From Thermoclostridium stercorarium subsp. stercorarium DSM 8532 (GTDB lineage: Bacteria; Bacillota; Clostridia; DSM-8532), in contig NC_020134.1 of assembly GCF_000331995.1 (NCBI RefSeq), positions 2,454,627-2,518,626 on the forward strand: a stretch of DNA of 64,000 nucleotides. The letters run 5' to 3'. The first letter of the stretch is position 1, and every line of letters starts with the position of its first letter. The notes under the pieces are model-generated. The model did not search any database and was not told where the DNA came from. It saw only the letters and a list, made by a program, of their open reading frames with translations. This document shows positions 1,071 through 51,819 of the stretch, piece by piece. The translations under genes and the position numbers were made by a program.

Positions 1071-1298
1071 TCATTCTTTTATGTTCTGGATAATACTTTT
1101 TAATTCCGCAATAACCTCAAAGGGTATGGTTACGCCTTTTTGACTGGGCTTATAGGTATCGTCGGCAGGATCATACCAGAATGTTCTTATATCCAAATAT
1201 TCCTTTCCGTTTTTCACAACCTGCTTTATATGTATTTCTTCACGGCTGTTTTTCGGCAGTTTCCCCAGCAGTTCTTCACTGTCCCAAAAAGAGCTCAT
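1071..1298 (-). CDS. PC4/YdbC-like single-stranded nucleic acid-binding protein
   Basis: A 75-residue protein resembling the bacterial PC4 (transcriptional coactivator p15) family, which binds single-stranded DNA as a dimer. Visible features are a beta-rich core (EIHIKQVVKNGKEYLDIRTF), a tryptophan/tyrosine pair, a KGVTIPFE strand-to-helix turn and a C-terminal helix, as in this fold. I chose the ATG at 1298 (MSSFWDSEE) because an AAAGGAG sits about 9 bases upstream; an earlier in-frame start at 1358 lacks this support. It probably forms a separate small transcription unit. The role (transcription, replication or repair) cannot be told from the context. Confidence 0.6.
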   Translation of the reverse strand: MSSFWDSEELLGKLPKNSREEIHIKQVVKNGKEYLDIRTFWYDPADDTYKPSQKGVTIPFEVIAELKSIIQNIKE

Positions 1299-1500
1299 AC
1301 TTTTATCTCCTTTTAAAATCCAGTTTGCCATTTTGTTTTGACTGTAAAACATGTCCAAGTGCGATCATTATATCACAGCAAAACCAGGTACTTCAACAAT
1401 CAATAAAAATACCGGTTTAGCTTACTGAAAAATTGAATTTACAAAATTTTCTTTAAACATTTGGAGTATTTTTTTTAATAAAGGTCATACTAAATTTCGA

Positions 1501-1535
1501 GATCCCGTATTTGCATTTTTTATTATTTCGGGATC
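1501..1535. other. inverted repeat upstream of the DUF378 gene
   Basis: GATCCCG at 1501-1507 and CGGGATC at 1529-1535 form a 7-bp inverted repeat with a 21-base T-rich spacer. It lies 55 bases before the DUF378 start, so it could be a leader hairpin or an operator. There is no T-tract right after it, so it is not a good terminator. The remainder of the 1299-1589 gap is AT-rich and shows nothing else I can name. Confidence 0.3.
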
Positions 1536-1589
1536 CGAAGGTTTCCGGCTGTAAAAAGATTGTACTCTACTGTAAAAGGAGTTGTCGGT

Positions 1590-1796
1590 ATGAGAACATT
1601 TGACAGAATAGCAGTTCTGCTTCTGATTGTGGGCGCATTAGACTGGCTGACGGTGGGACTTTTCAGTTTTGATTTTGTGGCAGCCATATTCGGAGGAGTG
1701 GACGCCCTGTGGAGCCGGATTATTTATACGCTGGTGGGCATTGCAGGAATTTACAGCATAAGCCTTTTATTCAGGGAGGCTCCTGCTTCCGAATAA
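1590..1796 (+). CDS. DUF378 family small membrane protein
   Basis: A 68-residue protein of the DUF378 family (YuzA-like), found in many Firmicutes and of unknown function. It has two hydrophobic segments, roughly residues 5-30 and 38-60, separated by a GGVDALWSR loop, which fits a two-helix membrane protein. The conserved ALDWLTVGL stretch after the first helix is typical of the family. The ATG at 1590 (MRTFDRIAV) is preferred because AAAGGAG lies 7-8 bases upstream; the longer frame from 1560 has no ribosome binding site. It stands alone and ends in a clear hairpin terminator. Confidence 0.75.
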   Translation: MRTFDRIAVLLLIVGALDWLTVGLFSFDFVAAIFGGVDALWSRIIYTLVGIAGIYSISLLFREAPASE

Positions 1797-1826
1797 TTCA
1801 CACATTTACAGAACGGTTCTAAAATC

Positions 1827-1854
1827 AGGCGCATTGAATATGCGCCTTTTTTTT
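1827..1854 (+). terminator. rho-independent terminator after the DUF378 gene
   Basis: AGGCGCAT (1827-1834) pairs perfectly with ATGCGCCT (1840-1847) around a 5-base loop, followed by a run of T. It lies 30 bases past the DUF378 stop. The next gene on the minus strand ends at 1860, so the hairpin may also serve that gene, although the T-tract favours the plus direction. Confidence 0.85.
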
Positions 1855-1859
1855 AAATG

Positions 1860-2027
1860 TTACACGTATAAATTTGAGCCTGCGGACCTAAAATTAATAG
1901 TCAGTAACATTCTTTTGTCAAATACAAACTCAATTTTTTCCACTTTAAGGTCCATGGGCTTTAAAGCTTCGTTCATGTCTTTCCTGATAAGTTTTTCAAG
2001 GACTTCGACTGTAATTGTTTTTTCCAT
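1860..2027 (-). CDS. small hypothetical protein
   Basis: A 55-residue protein starting MEKTITVEVLEKLI, with a Lys/Glu-rich helical first half and a beta-like second half (KVEKIEFVFDKRMLLTINF). There is no signal peptide or membrane helix and I recognise no family. The ATG at 2027 is preferred over the frame start at 2048 because AGAGGGG lies upstream at a usable distance. It lies 140 bp downstream of motB on the same strand. Function unknown. Confidence 0.5.
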   Translation of the reverse strand: MEKTITVEVLEKLIRKDMNEALKPMDLKVEKIEFVFDKRMLLTINFRSAGSNLYV

Positions 2028-2167
2028 GGGAAAGACCCCTCTGCACAAAACCAGATCAGATAAAAAATTCCTTATTTTTGCTTTTATTTTATATTATTTC
2101 CCAAGAAAACAAAAGGCTTACCTGTAATAAGCAAACCCGTAAGGAAAACTCCTGCGTAACAATATCA

Positions 2168-2953
2168 TTATTTCATTACCTTAATCTCTATTCTCCGGTT
2201 TTTACTTCTGCCTTCCGCAGTATTGTTATCCGCTATCGGCCTGTATTCCCCGCATCCTGCGGCCGTTAACCTTGAAGGGGCAATTCCTATCTCGTTTACC
2301 AGGTAAATGACCACATTTGTCGCCCTTCGTGTTGATAATTCCCAGTTTGTGGGAAACAACGGGGTATTTATCGGTACGGTGTCGGTATGCCCTTCTACAA
2401 TAATTTCGCCATCCAGAGCTTTCAGCGATTCTCCAAGGGTTTTGAGTGTATTTTTGCCGTCCTCAAGAATTTCTGCGCTTCCCGGTTTAAACAATACCTT
2501 TTCGTTCAGTCTTATAAGGATATATTCCTTTTCTTCTATAAGATCCACCTGATTTGAAATCCCCAACTCGGAGATATCCTGTTTCAGCTGCTCTTTGGCT
2601 TTTTCAAATTTCTCTTCCCTTATTCTCTCCCGGTCGTCCAGGATAATTCCCTCAGCAGTCTGGATATAACGCTCGTTGTCAACTATTTTTTTACCAGTGT
2701 CATCGGGATTTATAAAATTTACTGTAAGTATCTTTTTCCCCATATTATGATACAAAATAGTTCCGGCGCTGCCTGATTTTATGAACGTATTTCTTATGGA
2801 TCTCGAAAAAGTTTCAAATTTTTGAGCATCAATTACCGACATTGAAAAGAGCATTACAAAAAAACAAAGGAGATTGGTAACCAAATCACTGTATGTAGTC
2901 AGCCAGTTGCCGCCGAAGTCCAAACCCTCTTGATTTCCTTTTTTTCGAGCCAT
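2168..2953 (-). CDS. motB: flagellar motor stator protein MotB (OmpA-like)
   Basis: A 261-residue stator subunit that anchors the flagellar motor to peptidoglycan and, with MotA, conducts the driving ions. It has one N-terminal membrane helix (about residues 20-42) preceded by a basic tail. Asp23 in TTYSDLVTNLL matches the essential ion-binding Asp of MotB. A linker follows, then an OmpA-type peptidoglycan-binding domain (about 140-258) with the motif VEGHTDTVPI and a closing NRRIEIKV. Twenty bases separate it from motA upstream, so the two form an operon. No other flagellar gene is in the window, so the rest of the regulon must lie elsewhere. A role as a non-flagellar MotB-like anchor is possible but less likely. 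Confidence 0.88.
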   Translation of the reverse strand: MARKKGNQEGLDFGGNWLTTYSDLVTNLLCFFVMLFSMSVIDAQKFETFSRSIRNTFIKSGSAGTILYHNMGKKILTVNFINPDDTGKKIVDNERYIQTAEGIILDDRERIREEKFEKAKEQLKQDISELGISNQVDLIEEKEYILIRLNEKVLFKPGSAEILEDGKNTLKTLGESLKALDGEIIVEGHTDTVPINTPLFPTNWELSTRRATNVVIYLVNEIGIAPSRLTAAGCGEYRPIADNNTAEGRSKNRRIEIKVMK

Positions 2954-2973
2954 TCCCTTTCACCGCCTATAAA

Positions 2974-3780
2974 TTACTGAAGCCTGTTTGCCTGAAAACT
3001 ACTTCCTCCGGCTATCATTCTCTCATAATCTTCCCTCTGTTCGGGCGAGAGGAATGTCTTCAGCCTGTGTTCCATAATTCTCGGGTTTTCACCGGCCTGG
3101 ATTGATAAAACCCCTTCAATTATCATTTCCTTAATTCTTATTTCTTCAGTGCTGAGTTCCTGTAATTTTGTGGCTACTGGAACACAAATCATGTTTGCCA
3201 GTATACTTCCGTAAAAAGTGGTTACCAGCGCCAGAGACATAGCCGCACCGATCTGGGAAGGATCATCCATAGACCTCAGAAGGTTTATCAATCCGAGCAA
3301 AGTTCCTATCATACCCCATGCAGGGAACTCAGCAGCCAGTGTCTTAAAAATTGAAATACACTTTCCGTGTCTGATGCTCATGTTATCAAGCTCGAGCTGC
3401 ATTGAATCACGGATGATTTCAGGCTCGACTCCGTCCACAACAAGCTCAAGGGCTTTTTTCAAATATTCATCTTCAATTTCCTCCTGGTTTGATTCCAGGG
3501 CCAGTAAGCCTTCCCTTCTCGCTTTCTGGGATAATTCCACAAGCAGCTGAATAAGTTTATACGGCGATTGTTCCTTTCTTTTAAAAAGCTTGGGAAGAAC
3601 TTTTAAAAGATTCCTGAAATCATCCAGCGTAAATGCAATGATGGTAGAAGCAAGTCCACCACCGAAAGTAACCGCCAGTGAACTTAAACTCCAGAATGCC
3701 GAAGGGTTTCCTCCGTCGTACATACCCCAAAGAATACATGCGATTCCTATTATAAGTCCTATCAGTGTTGCAAGATCCAT
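2974..3780 (-). CDS. motA: flagellar motor stator protein MotA
   Basis: A 268-residue inner-membrane protein of the MotA/ExbB superfamily that forms the stator ion channel with MotB. Four hydrophobic segments are visible: about residues 3-22 (LATLIGLIIGIACILWG), 30-50, and a pair at about 150-200 with the family signature AEFPAWGMIGTLLGLINLL. A large cytoplasmic loop lies between helices 2 and 3, as in MotA. The ATG at 3780 is chosen because AGGAG lies 8 bases upstream; the TTG two codons earlier would be only 2 bases from it. It is the first gene of the motAB operon. Confidence 0.88.
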   Translation of the reverse strand: MDLATLIGLIIGIACILWGMYDGGNPSAFWSLSSLAVTFGGGLASTIIAFTLDDFRNLLKVLPKLFKRKEQSPYKLIQLLVELSQKARREGLLALESNQEEIEDEYLKKALELVVDGVEPEIIRDSMQLELDNMSIRHGKCISIFKTLAAEFPAWGMIGTLLGLINLLRSMDDPSQIGAAMSLALVTTFYGSILANMICVPVATKLQELSTEEIRIKEMIIEGVLSIQAGENPRIMEHRLKTFLSPEQREDYERMIAGGSSFQANRLQ

Positions 3781-47598: not shown

Positions 47599-48336
47599 TC
47601 AGTCCTGCATTTCAGTAAGGTTTTTCCAGTATTTTTTAGGCATAAAACGCATCTGGGCGCGGGGATTCCTGCGCTCTTTTATTGCTATTGATTTGAAAAA
47701 GGCTTTCCAAAGAGCTGCATATTCATCTTCTTCGACGGTTTTTTCATCACCGACCTGAGGAACCTTGTCGGTTATCACCAGTTCGCTGCCGTCAAAAACC
47801 GCACTTATGTTTCTCTTTCTGTCATGAATTATAAAGGACTGCATTGAAAGCCTTCGCACAAAATGAGGCGCAATTAAAATGGTAATGTTATAATCAGGCT
47901 CATATCCTGCATAGAAAATTCCCTCTGTAACTTCCTTGAACCTCAGAAGCCCGAGAAATCGGTGGGCTTCCCTTCCCACTTTTCTGTCGAGGTCAATTAT
48001 TTTGCTTATTCTTTGATCCTGCAGATAGTCGGTAACCCTTCCGCCCATTTTGTAGCCAATTCTCAAAAAATAATAAATCAAATCGGGCGCATTTTCATCT
48101 TCACTCAGCCATGCACGGTAAACAATCTCCTGCGCCCTTTGGGATATTTTTTTTGGAATGGACAAATACACCCGCTCAAACTTGCCCATATCGGTTTCAA
48201 TTTCCTTAACCTCATCCAGAAAGGACGGGATGTAGGTCGCTTTGTTTTTAATTGACACATCCCGTTCCTTTGATGAATATGCTTCAAATACGCAGGTTAA
48301 CAAGCCTTCAAAACTGCCGTCGAACAGATAAACCAT
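47599..48336 (-). CDS. DUF4130 (TIGR03915-type) DNA metabolism protein
   Basis: A 245-residue protein of the TIGR03915/DUF4130 group, which is called a probable DNA metabolism protein and is often found with a radical SAM protein and fused to uracil-DNA glycosylases. The visible features are VYLFDGSFEGLLTCVFEAY at the start, LDRKVGREAHRFLGLLRF in the middle and the positively charged end PRAQMRFMPKKYWKNLTE. Its reaction is not known. It starts 4 bases before the Hsp33 gene ends, in an operon with a glycosylase-alkyltransferase fusion. The usual radical SAM partner is not in the window. Confidence 0.82.
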   Translation of the reverse strand: MVYLFDGSFEGLLTCVFEAYSSKERDVSIKNKATYIPSFLDEVKEIETDMGKFERVYLSIPKKISQRAQEIVYRAWLSEDENAPDLIYYFLRIGYKMGGRVTDYLQDQRISKIIDLDRKVGREAHRFLGLLRFKEVTEGIFYAGYEPDYNITILIAPHFVRRLSMQSFIIHDRKRNISAVFDGSELVITDKVPQVGDEKTVEEDEYAALWKAFFKSIAIKERRNPRAQMRFMPKKYWKNLTEMQD

Positions 48337-48340
48337 AAAA

Positions 48341-49258
48341 TCACTCTTTCACCTGTTCATTCCCTTCAGTATTCTTTTCCTGCTTCGCACGCTCAAAAAT
48401 TTCTCTAATCTCCGACGGGCTGAACACATATTTCGATCTGCAGAAATGGCATACAAGTTCTGTCTCCTTATTATCGGCGGCTATTTCCTCCAAATCCTTA
48501 ATACCAAGGCTAAGCAAGTTTCTTTCCATCCTCTCCCTTGAACAGGTACATTTAAACCTGACCGGTCTGGTATCCAGATATACCAGTTCTTTCCCCGGCA
48601 GTACCTCGTCGAGGATATTCTCCAGCGTTCTGTCAGGTGCAAGCATTTTCGTTATAGGCGGCATTTTCTCTACGCATTTCTCAAGCCATGAAATGTCTTC
48701 TTCGCTGCACCCAGGCATCAGTTGTATGAAAATCCCGCCGGAGTTCACAATATCGCCGTTCCTGTCAACAAGAACCCCAAGGCTTGTTACGGTTGGTGTC
48801 TGCTCCGAAACGGCGTAATAGTAAGTTATATCTTCGGCAATTTCCCCCGATACCAGTTTCACACGGCCTATATATGGTTCCTTTAAACCAAGGTCGGTGA
48901 TCACGTCCAGGTAACCTTTCCCCACGGCGCCCGCTATGTCAAACTTGCCTTTGTCATTTAACGGCATATCCAGGTACGGGTTATGGACATAACCCCTTAC
49001 ATTTGAACGGGCATCAGTCACTGCAAGAATACCGCCCAGAGGCCCGTCCCCTTTTATCTGTATTGTAATAGTGCTTTTTTCACTTTTCAGCGTGCCGCTC
49101 ATCATAGCCGCTGCGGTTAAAGTTCTTCCCAGAGCCACCGCCGGAGTGGGAAACAGATCGTGAACCTTTTTGGCATACGCAACGGTATTAGTGGTAACAG
49201 CGGCGTATATACGTATCTGTCCGTCTTTCGTCATCGCCCTGAGCATATAATCTTCCAT
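48341..49258 (-). CDS. hslO: Hsp33 redox-regulated chaperone
   Basis: A 305-residue chaperone held inactive under reducing conditions by zinc bound to four Cys, and activated by oxidation. The Cys motif is at the C-terminal end: CTC (FKCTCSRERMER) followed by CHFCRSKYVF, the C-x-C...C-x-x-C set of Hsp33. GDGPLGGILAVTDA and RGYVHNP are typical of the folded domain. The ATG at 49258 is the conserved start, though AGAGGAG lies 13 bases away, which is long. It is between the glycosylase fusion and DUF4130 genes in one operon, so a link of oxidative and DNA damage responses is suggested. Confidence 0.9.
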   Translation of the reverse strand: MEDYMLRAMTKDGQIRIYAAVTTNTVAYAKKVHDLFPTPAVALGRTLTAAAMMSGTLKSEKSTITIQIKGDGPLGGILAVTDARSNVRGYVHNPYLDMPLNDKGKFDIAGAVGKGYLDVITDLGLKEPYIGRVKLVSGEIAEDITYYYAVSEQTPTVTSLGVLVDRNGDIVNSGGIFIQLMPGCSEEDISWLEKCVEKMPPITKMLAPDRTLENILDEVLPGKELVYLDTRPVRFKCTCSRERMERNLLSLGIKDLEEIAADNKETELVCHFCRSKYVFSPSEIREIFERAKQEKNTEGNEQVKE

Positions 49259-49313: not shown

Positions 49314-50345
49314 TCAATCCGCACTTTCAGCAAAGGAATATTTTCCGGAATATTCAGCTTCCAGCTCAATAAGCATTTTTTGAAGGGGGTTGCCGCCAAT
49401 TCCCATAAACCCCACATATCTGCCCTTTGACCCAATTACACGGTGACACGGAATAATCAAAGGCAAAGGGTTCTTCTTAAGGGCCTGCCCGACCGCTCTT
49501 GCAGCATGCTTGTTCCCCGCCATTTCAGCAAGCTCCCGGTACGTTACCGTGCACCCGTAAGGCACTTTCAAAAGGGCATTGTATACATTTTTTTCGAAGT
49601 TTGTTCCCCGTATTTCAAACGGAATGTCAAACGACCGTATTTTTCCCTTGAAATATTCTTCAATCTGATTTTTAGCCAGCTCTGAAATCCTGTTTCCCGA
49701 AAATAAGGCAAAACCATCAGTTTCCGGCTCACTGCCGGGCAAAAACACTCCGGTTACAACCCGGTCATCCGCAAGGACAATGATTTCGCCAATCTCAGTT
49801 TTTGCCACCGATTTATATTTTACCCGGTTTTCCAAAGTATGCCTTATATAGCGCCACATACGCATTTTTTCTTCCGGCGGAACCGAAGCATTCGCCGGGC
49901 TTGTGGACGGCAGCCTTAGAAAATAAATTTCCCGCTTGATTTCAGGCAGCACATGCCTTCTAAAATGTTTCTCGGATGTTTCTCCGTTGCAGAAAACGTA
50001 TTTTATGTTCGGGTATGCGTTCAATAGCCCGGCGACATCATTCGGAATTTCATCGCAGATGTTTGAATCAAGGCTTCCTTTACGCCTGCATGACTTATAA
50101 ACATCCCACAGCGCAATCTTTTTGCTTCTCAGAAAATCAATTTTTTTATTATAATCGGCATCAGGATTTTCATCAAATATACCGTAAATAAGCGGCCAGA
50201 ACAGATTTCTTGGATGAGCATAATACTGCCGCTTTCTTAAAGACTCGGCGCCGGGCATCGTACCGAGGATCAAAACCTTGCTTTGACTGTCCGCAATCGG
50301 GTCAAAGGATCTCAATATTAAATTTGAATCATCAAAGTTTGTCAT
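49314..50345 (-). CDS. fusion of DNA-deoxyinosine glycosylase and O6-alkylguanine-DNA alkyltransferase
   Basis: A 343-residue protein made of two repair domains. The N-terminal part (about 1-170) matches hypoxanthine-DNA glycosylases of the uracil glycosylase superfamily: ILGTMPGAESLRKRQYYAHP, NLFWPLIYGIF, KIALWDVYKSC and RLPSTSPANAS. The C-terminal part (about 175-335) is an O6-methylguanine-DNA methyltransferase, with TVTYRELAEMAGNKHAARAVG, the alkyl-accepting Cys in PLIIPCHRVIGSKG and YVGFMGIGGNPLQK. The first domain removes deaminated bases and the second repairs alkylated guanine directly. The ATG at 50345 has AAAGGCGG. It is the first gene of an operon with Hsp33 and DUF4130. Confidence 0.85.
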   Translation of the reverse strand: MTNFDDSNLILRSFDPIADSQSKVLILGTMPGAESLRKRQYYAHPRNLFWPLIYGIFDENPDADYNKKIDFLRSKKIALWDVYKSCRRKGSLDSNICDEIPNDVAGLLNAYPNIKYVFCNGETSEKHFRRHVLPEIKREIYFLRLPSTSPANASVPPEEKMRMWRYIRHTLENRVKYKSVAKTEIGEIIVLADDRVVTGVFLPGSEPETDGFALFSGNRISELAKNQIEEYFKGKIRSFDIPFEIRGTNFEKNVYNALLKVPYGCTVTYRELAEMAGNKHAARAVGQALKKNPLPLIIPCHRVIGSKGRYVGFMGIGGNPLQKMLIELEAEYSGKYSFAESAD

Positions 50346-50523
50346 TTTTCCGCCTTTCATAAAAATTCCGTTATAAAAACGTGCAAACAGGAAATATAAT
50401 CATTAGCAGATGTTTTTCAACTGACACAACATATAATATACCATATAATGATCATGCTTTAAATATATGAATTTGTCGCAAAACTGCCAGATTTTGAAAA
50501 AGGTGAAACGGAAGGAACTACTT

Positions 50524-51222
50524 ATGGATCCGTTACGGTTGTTCGTAATAGCGGTTACACCCGGAATTGCCCTTGCAATGGGGTTATACCTTACCGACAG
50601 ATACGACAGAGAGCCGGTAGGGCTTCTTGTAAGGCTTTTTCTCCACGGAATGCTGGCTGCTGTTCCGACAATATTCGTGGAAAGATTTTTAAGCAATATA
50701 AACATATTCAGCGGTATATTTTCCGCAGTCTGGACGGCATACATTGTGGCAGGTTTCACTGAAGAATACTTCAAGCGCCTTGTGGTCATGCGCCTGGCTT
50801 ATTATCATGTCTCATTTGACGAAAAACTTGACGGAATTATTTACTGCGCATACTCGGCCCTTGGCTTTGCAACAATTGAAAATATTATGTATGTTTTTTC
50901 GGGGTATGACGCAGATCCTTACATTGGATGGTACCGCGGTATCTTAAGTGTTCCCGCTCATATGCTGTTTGCCATCACAATGGGTTATTACCTGTCGCTG
51001 GCAAAATTCAGCCCTGACATAATAAACCGAAAAAGATACTATTCACTGTCACTTATTATGCCTATGCTCTTACACGGAACCTTTAACTTTATTCTCCTCT
51101 CACAGAACCATATGCTTATGTTTCTGTTCATACCGTTTGTCATTTACATGTGGATAACAAACTTAAGGAAACTGAACAAGTATTATCAGGAGTCAAAGGT
51201 CTGGAACAAATTTGACCTATGA
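50524..51222 (+). CDS. PrsW family intramembrane metalloprotease
   Basis: A 232-residue membrane protein with about seven helices, of the PrsW/CPBP-like protease group. The metal motif is TEEYFKRLVVM (Glu-Glu) near residue 78, with His residues in later helices (VPAHMLFAI and LLHGTFNFIL). PrsW in Bacillus cuts the anti-sigma factor RsiW; the substrate here is unknown. GGAAGGA precedes the ATG at 50524. It diverges from the glycosylase fusion gene and overlaps the end of the AlkA-like gene by 6 bases. Confidence 0.85.
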   Translation: MDPLRLFVIAVTPGIALAMGLYLTDRYDREPVGLLVRLFLHGMLAAVPTIFVERFLSNINIFSGIFSAVWTAYIVAGFTEEYFKRLVVMRLAYYHVSFDEKLDGIIYCAYSALGFATIENIMYVFSGYDADPYIGWYRGILSVPAHMLFAITMGYYLSLAKFSPDIINRKRYYSLSLIMPMLLHGTFNFILLSQNHMLMFLFIPFVIYMWITNLRKLNKYYQESKVWNKFDL

Positions 51223-51819
51223 CTCCTTCGCAATTTCCCACAGATATATGGAAGCCGTCGTACAATACGGGGAATAAAGGGATCGGTATTCGTCAAATTT
51301 TTCTTTTGTGAGCCTGTCAATGCCATGGAGTTTCATTAGCCCTTTCCTGATACCAAAGTCGCTGAAGCTTAAAACATTCGGCCTGGCAAGGGAAAATATC
51401 AAAAGCATTTCCGCAGTCCATATACCAACGCCCGGGAGGGTTGTAAGAATGTCTATCACCTCCCGGTCGGGTTTGGCTTTAAGGCCGCCAAAGTCAACTG
51501 TTCCGTTTACAGCGGCCTCTGCAATTTTCCTTATATATTCAGCCTTTCTTAAAGACATACCGCAGGCCTTAATCTCTGAAATATCAAGCTCGGCCAGCCT
51601 TTCGGGCGCTATTTCTCCCGCCCTGGCGACCAGCCTGTTGAACACGGTATCCGCCGCCTTTCCTGTAATCTGCTGTCCGACTATGCTGTAAACAAGGGCC
51701 CGGAAGGGATCGGGAATAATCCGGCGCTTAACGAAACCAATCCTGTCAATCGCTTCTCCAAGCTTTTTATCCCGTTCCTTCAAATATTCTGTTTCTTTTT
51801 CCCCATATTCGAAATACAC
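51217..51819 (-). CDS. AlkA-like HhH-GPD DNA glycosylase
   Basis: A 200-residue DNA glycosylase of the HhH-GPD superfamily, close to 3-methyladenine DNA glycosylase II without the N-terminal AlkA domain. The helix-hairpin-helix and catalytic region is clear: LPGVGIWTAEMLLIFSL, then LSFSDFGIRKGLMKLHG with the catalytic Asp. A VGQQITGKAADTVFNRL segment fits the base-flipping domain. It starts with GTG at 51819 after a GGTGAT. Its end overlaps prsW by 6 bases in convergent orientation. With the fusion protein nearby it strengthens the DNA-repair character of this region. Confidence 0.85.
   Translation of the reverse strand: MYFEYGEKETEYLKERDKKLGEAIDRIGFVKRRIIPDPFRALVYSIVGQQITGKAADTVFNRLVARAGEIAPERLAELDISEIKACGMSLRKAEYIRKIAEAAVNGTVDFGGLKAKPDREVIDILTTLPGVGIWTAEMLLIFSLARPNVLSFSDFGIRKGLMKLHGIDRLTKEKFDEYRSLYSPYCTTASIYLWEIAKES

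Follow-up and report, generated by a model that had tools for sequence, protein, structure and literature searches.

A rare fusion of a predicted deoxyinosine glycosylase with an O6-alkylguanine-DNA alkyltransferase, so far found in a single clostridial genus

The gene analyzed here has its closest described functional counterpart in AGTendoV, a protein of Ferroplasma acidarmanus (Kanugula et al. 2005, PNAS 102:3617). AGTendoV combines an O6-alkylguanine-DNA alkyltransferase (AGT) with endonuclease V in one polypeptide and acts on both O6-alkylguanine and certain deaminated bases (PMC10779285). Fusions of the AGT-endonuclease V type keep only the C-terminal part of the AGT (PMC10779285). The same source gives as AGT features the acceptor Cys, its His and Glu partners, an Arg finger, a Tyr and an Asn hinge, and describes alkyltransferase-like (ATL) proteins as having lost the acceptor Cys (PMC10779285). 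Within the window, the whole 64,000-nucleotide stretch of Thermoclostridium stercorarium DNA under study, a gene at 49314..50345 on the minus strand encodes a protein that resembles AGTendoV in joining an AGT to the repair of deoxyinosine or deaminated bases, an activity that is here predicted. In the archaeal protein the partner is endonuclease V, which is a nuclease and folds differently, whereas the clostridial protein is bacterial and carries a glycosylase of the UDG superfamily; the partner lies at its N terminus, its AGT retains the N-terminal domain, and a Pfam search of the protein gave no match to the endonuclease V domain PF04493. A sequence-only reading of the locus had called the pairing unusual and had named Ada-type regulators and AlkA as the known partners of AGT. 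That list is incomplete, since it missed AGTendoV; the exact fusion was not found outside the genus in the genomes searched, but the pairing of functions has this Ferroplasma precedent (PMC10779285). What is new here is the glycosylase as partner, the bacterial host and a variant AGT loop, the functional pairing being already known.

The gene is an uninterrupted open reading frame of 343 codons, with full-length orthologues in two congeners. The ATG at 50345 is preferred over an upstream ATG at 50360 (which would give 348 aa) because the Shine-Dalgarno-like sequence AAAGGCGG (50350..50357, minus strand, read from sequence), followed by AAAA, lies directly ahead of it and makes a good ribosome-binding site. 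This choice agrees with the boundaries first proposed for the gene. Further upstream, a promoter-like TTGAAA-16-TATATT is found at 50393..50420 on the same strand, as a match to consensus only. In the encoded protein, about 12 residues link the two domains.

The N-terminal glycosylase domain, of UDG superfamily family 6, spans residues 13-164 (49854..50309, minus strand). It matched the NCBIfam profile for DNA-deoxyinosine glycosylase, TIGR04274, over its entire length (positions 1-150/150) with 174.1 bits against a cut-off of 80, and the Pfam UDG family with 42.6 bits, above the curated cut-off. Residues N47, F49, W50, D81, C86, N102, S147 and S149, invariant across 73 glycosylase sequences, are all kept, as is N120, present in 68 of the 73. 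The family's motif residues are likewise all in place: the Asn after GxMPG, the N-G motif and the STSPAN motif. In structure 2l3f the counterparts of N47 and N120 by alignment are positions 39 and 113, which we take to be the catalytic Asn residues reported for the M. barkeri HDG. In the AlphaFold model this half has pLDDT values mostly above 90, and its top Foldseek match is 2l3f itself, a Methanosarcina protein (TMt 0.84). Whole profile, diagnostic residues and fold all liken it to the Methanosarcina-type HDG of UDG family 6. Deoxyinosine is the predicted substrate on the basis of the family name, base specificity being variable among members of the UDG superfamily. The TIGR04274 members inspected differ from the fusion in being mostly stand-alone proteins of about 160-200 aa, a few of which have unrelated C-terminal extensions. 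One such extension (L025, 1495-2595) is alpha/beta-hydrolase-like, near or below the Pfam cut-off; two others (L013, 1438-2565, and L006, 1504-2355) have no family assignment.

Residues 177-330 make up a complete AGT, in which the N-terminal ribonuclease-like domain (PF02870, Methyltransf_1N; residues 177-245; 49611..49817, minus strand; 24.2 bits, cut-off 21) is followed by the catalytic, DNA-binding domain (PF01035, DNA_binding_1; residues 249-330; 49356..49601, minus strand; 99 bits, above the curated cut-off). The NCBIfam profile TIGR00589 (ogt) scored 88.1 bits against a cut-off of 46.4. With UDG, Methyltransf_1N and DNA_binding_1 all above their curated cut-offs in the 343-residue protein, the Pfam and NCBIfam scores bear out the original proposal that a UDG-superfamily deoxyinosine glycosylase and a complete AGT occur in that order in one protein. 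The motifs on which that proposal was built (ILGTMPGAES, STSPANAS and the acceptor Cys in IPCHRV) are present in the sequence, the Cys being C300 (codon at 49446..49448, minus strand), a Cys in all 29 aligned AGTs. Y269, N292, P299, C300, H301 and R302 are invariant across the 29 sequences and kept in the fusion, and so are R283 (28 of 29) and E329 (26 of 29). The described AGT features can thus be assigned one by one: C300 as acceptor, H301 and E329 as its partners, R283 as the Arg finger, Y269 as the Tyr and N292 as the Asn hinge. When folded alone with an AGT alignment, this half reached a pLDDT of 87.7 and had as top match the DNA-bound M. tuberculosis OGT, 4wx9 (TMq 0.81); in the full-length model, where the alignment is shallow over this region, much of it falls below 50 and the relative placement of the halves is unreliable. 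The protein has neither the zinc-binding nor the AraC-type regulatory domain of Ada, and the full Ada model scored 68 bits against a cut-off of 345. It also differs from ATL proteins, in which the acceptor Cys is replaced, usually by Trp. As a two-domain AGT with PCHRV it is like standard Ogt (TIGR00589, PF02870 plus PF01035), from which it departs by its junction to a glycosylase and by its active-site loop.

That loop, FMGIGGNPLQ (49380..49409, minus strand), is two residues longer by alignment than in 26 other AGTs, and in all three fusions a Gln occupies the position at which nearly all other aligned AGTs keep a Lys. After PCHRV the three fusions read GFMG(I/V)xxNPxQ. The PCHRV signature itself is intact, and in place of the common loop form GY/F-x-GG-xxxK (usual, and not a signature) the protein has GFMGIGGNPLQK. 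Both the insertion and the Lys-to-Gln change were seen in one alignment and again in a repeat with another set of AGTs. Judged from these alignments, the two-residue insertion and loss of the conserved Lys are a new, lineage-specific feature of the fusion. In AGT structures, the region of the loop following PCHRV adjoins the alkyl pocket, and the AGT activity or substrate range of the fusion may differ from that of other AGTs.

The full fusion occurs in two other species of the genus (G149 and G304) at 67-70% identity. A fourth species (G235) shows neither the fusion nor Hsp33, and the AGT seen in it is a distant one (31%) at a contig end. Creation of the fusion by a frameshift or misassembly was among the outcomes that would have refuted the initial proposal; nothing was found in favor of such an artefact, and the recurrence of the fusion at full length in three genomes, each assembled separately, leaves it practically no chance. 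Among about 1,960 other genomes of four phyla (391 from the class and 399 from the phylum, with 396, 399 and 380 from three further phyla, overlapping entries included), no further fusion was found and the halves occurred only apart. The phylum-level searches listed strong matches only (E at most 1e-30 to 1e-45), a threshold that two ordinarily conserved halves should exceed and that a very diverged fusion could escape. No match covering 80% of the query was obtained from plasmids (417 records with a match) or phages (34), nor was a relative of the fusion found in viral contigs. A conserved-peptide scan of a collection of 84,980 species returned fusions in the two congeners only. At the glycosylase loci inspected outside the genus no AGT lay in the stretches of surrounding DNA covered, and no precursor in the form of adjacent separate genes was seen. 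Long open frames elsewhere were considered as further examples; some turned out to encode different fusions, and the rest ran from stop to stop with no AGT beside the glycosylase. A widespread distribution is rejected at the depth searched, and the rarity that had been suspected holds: so far this is a rare fusion, seen in three species of one genus. No description of it was found in the open-access literature, most subscription papers lying outside the scope of that search. When a tree was built for each half, the three fusions grouped as a single clade both times; the deeper placement is weak (support of 0.74 and 0.87 for the two halves) and does not fix the origin of either half.

Other AGT fusions came to light in the survey. 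The most similar in plan is an AlkA-AGT protein from the same phylum (L090 of G416, 1093-2514, 474 aa), which also has a glycosylase N-terminal to the AGT; this glycosylase is, however, an HhH-GPD AlkA and not a UDG-superfamily member, making the protein analogous and not an orthologue. A 792-aa protein (L087 of G076, 1184-3559) begins with a NYN domain and has a complete AGT in its middle. Two more (L086, 2-2701, 900 or more aa; L088, 502-2187, 562 aa) carry the AGT at the N terminus, and their remaining several hundred residues have no Pfam match.

In the 2.97 Mb genome the fusion is the only PF01035 protein, and a search with the fusion protein matched nothing but itself, giving no second copy of the glycosylase. 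Endonuclease V (PF04493) was found in none of the four congeners by a search that matched 6 of 14 control genomes. With a sole AGT, no second glycosylase of this kind and no endonuclease V, the genome has in the fusion its obvious source of both functions. An AlkA-like HhH-GPD DNA glycosylase encoded near the cluster, beyond a PrsW gene (51217..51819, minus strand; PF00730, 61.5 bits), is a possible second hypoxanthine enzyme. Of the two congener loci, one has a conserved copy of its gene (L002/L036), and the 10,990 bases of the other (L035) gave no match.

On conserved domains and residues, we think it probable that the fusion is bifunctional in repair, excising hypoxanthine with one half and reversing O6-alkylguanine with the other. 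The N-terminal half would flip out deoxyinosine (hypoxanthine arising from deaminated adenine) and hydrolyze its glycosidic bond, the resulting abasic site passing to ordinary base excision repair. The C-terminal half would flip out O6-alkylguanine and accept the alkyl group on Cys300 in an irreversible transfer. One gene would supply the genome's only AGT together with the only TIGR04274-type glycosylase found by search, and tethering would link the repair chemistries for two lesions that may occur jointly. Nitrosation can cause both, since it deaminates adenine and generates alkylating N-nitroso compounds, and this may be the rationale for joining the two halves and the source of a benefit from tethering. 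A different view of the junction is that two active, independent domains came together by accident and became fixed in a single lineage, uncoupled from each other. This opposes the benefit of tethering and not bifunctionality, and its likelihood, which we place somewhat below an even chance, overlaps with that of the bifunctional protein. The restriction to three species of one genus, the short linker with separate active sites and the joining of AGT elsewhere to AlkA (L090), NYN (L087) and unassigned regions (L086, L088) are all in keeping with a chance event; against it, the fusion has been conserved while the sequences diverged to about 68% identity, none of the three having split again, and Ferroplasma too joined AGT to deoxyinosine repair, with an unrelated enzyme.

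The unusual loop raises another alternative, in which only the glycosylase half is catalytically normal, the AGT half now serving as a sensor of lesions or acting on bulky O6-adducts. In this role it would bring the glycosylase, or other repair proteins, to damaged sites, in a manner reminiscent of ATL proteins. The two-residue insertion and the Lys-to-Gln change, common to all three fusions and absent from 26 other AGTs, speak for this possibility, but the acceptor Cys, His, Glu, Arg finger, Tyr and Asn hinge are all retained. ATL proteins, moreover, lose the Cys (PMC10779285), which the fusion does not, and the genome would be left with no ordinary AGT; we regard this alternative as unlikely. 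Repair of deoxyinosine and of O6-alkylguanine has been brought together in two unrelated lineages, in Ferroplasma through endonuclease V and in the clostridial genus, on its predicted activities, through a glycosylase of the UDG superfamily. This convergence suggests that deamination of adenine and O6-alkylation of guanine threaten cells in a linked way, plausibly via nitrosation. The clostridial fusion is a compact protein for testing that link, and its AGT is of interest for the unusual active-site loop.

Two genes follow the fusion gene on the minus strand, as originally proposed: Hsp33 (HslO; 48341..49258; PF01430, 324.5 bits) after 55 bp, and DUF4130/TIGR03915, a putative DNA repair protein (47599..48336; 258.6 bits), 4 bp after Hsp33. 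The order fusion gene, Hsp33, DUF4130 is the same in all three genomes, with the PrsW gene adjoining on the other strand. Consensus matching revealed no terminator-like site between the three co-directional genes on their strand, and this together with the conserved gene order fits co-transcription; the fusion may be co-expressed and induced together with Hsp33 and DUF4130. DUF4130 is predicted to be an enzyme related to mutagenesis, with links to UDGs and to SplB-like radical SAM proteins (PMC3765255). A more speculative scheme, which we consider improbable, has the halves working together and not independently: the AGT half, its loop remodelled, would recognize alkylated or nitrosation-derived guanine adducts and recruit or orient the glycosylase, in a coordinated nitrosative-damage machine with DUF4130. 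The usual radical SAM partner of DUF4130, TIGR03916, is encoded about 250 kb away in the genome (G000:C1:2755161-2756372, L031), where it adjoins an IS30-like transposase (named by eye). In addition to the Hsp33 beside the fusion, G149 has a second one (50% identical; G149:C39:675-1553, L071). Linkage of glycosylase to Hsp33 is not a general rule, only one other case having been seen (L024/L094): in another family of the class (G362; L094, 673-6925), a uvrB-uvrA-deoxyinosine glycosylase-Hsp33 cluster separately places a glycosylase gene directly before Hsp33.
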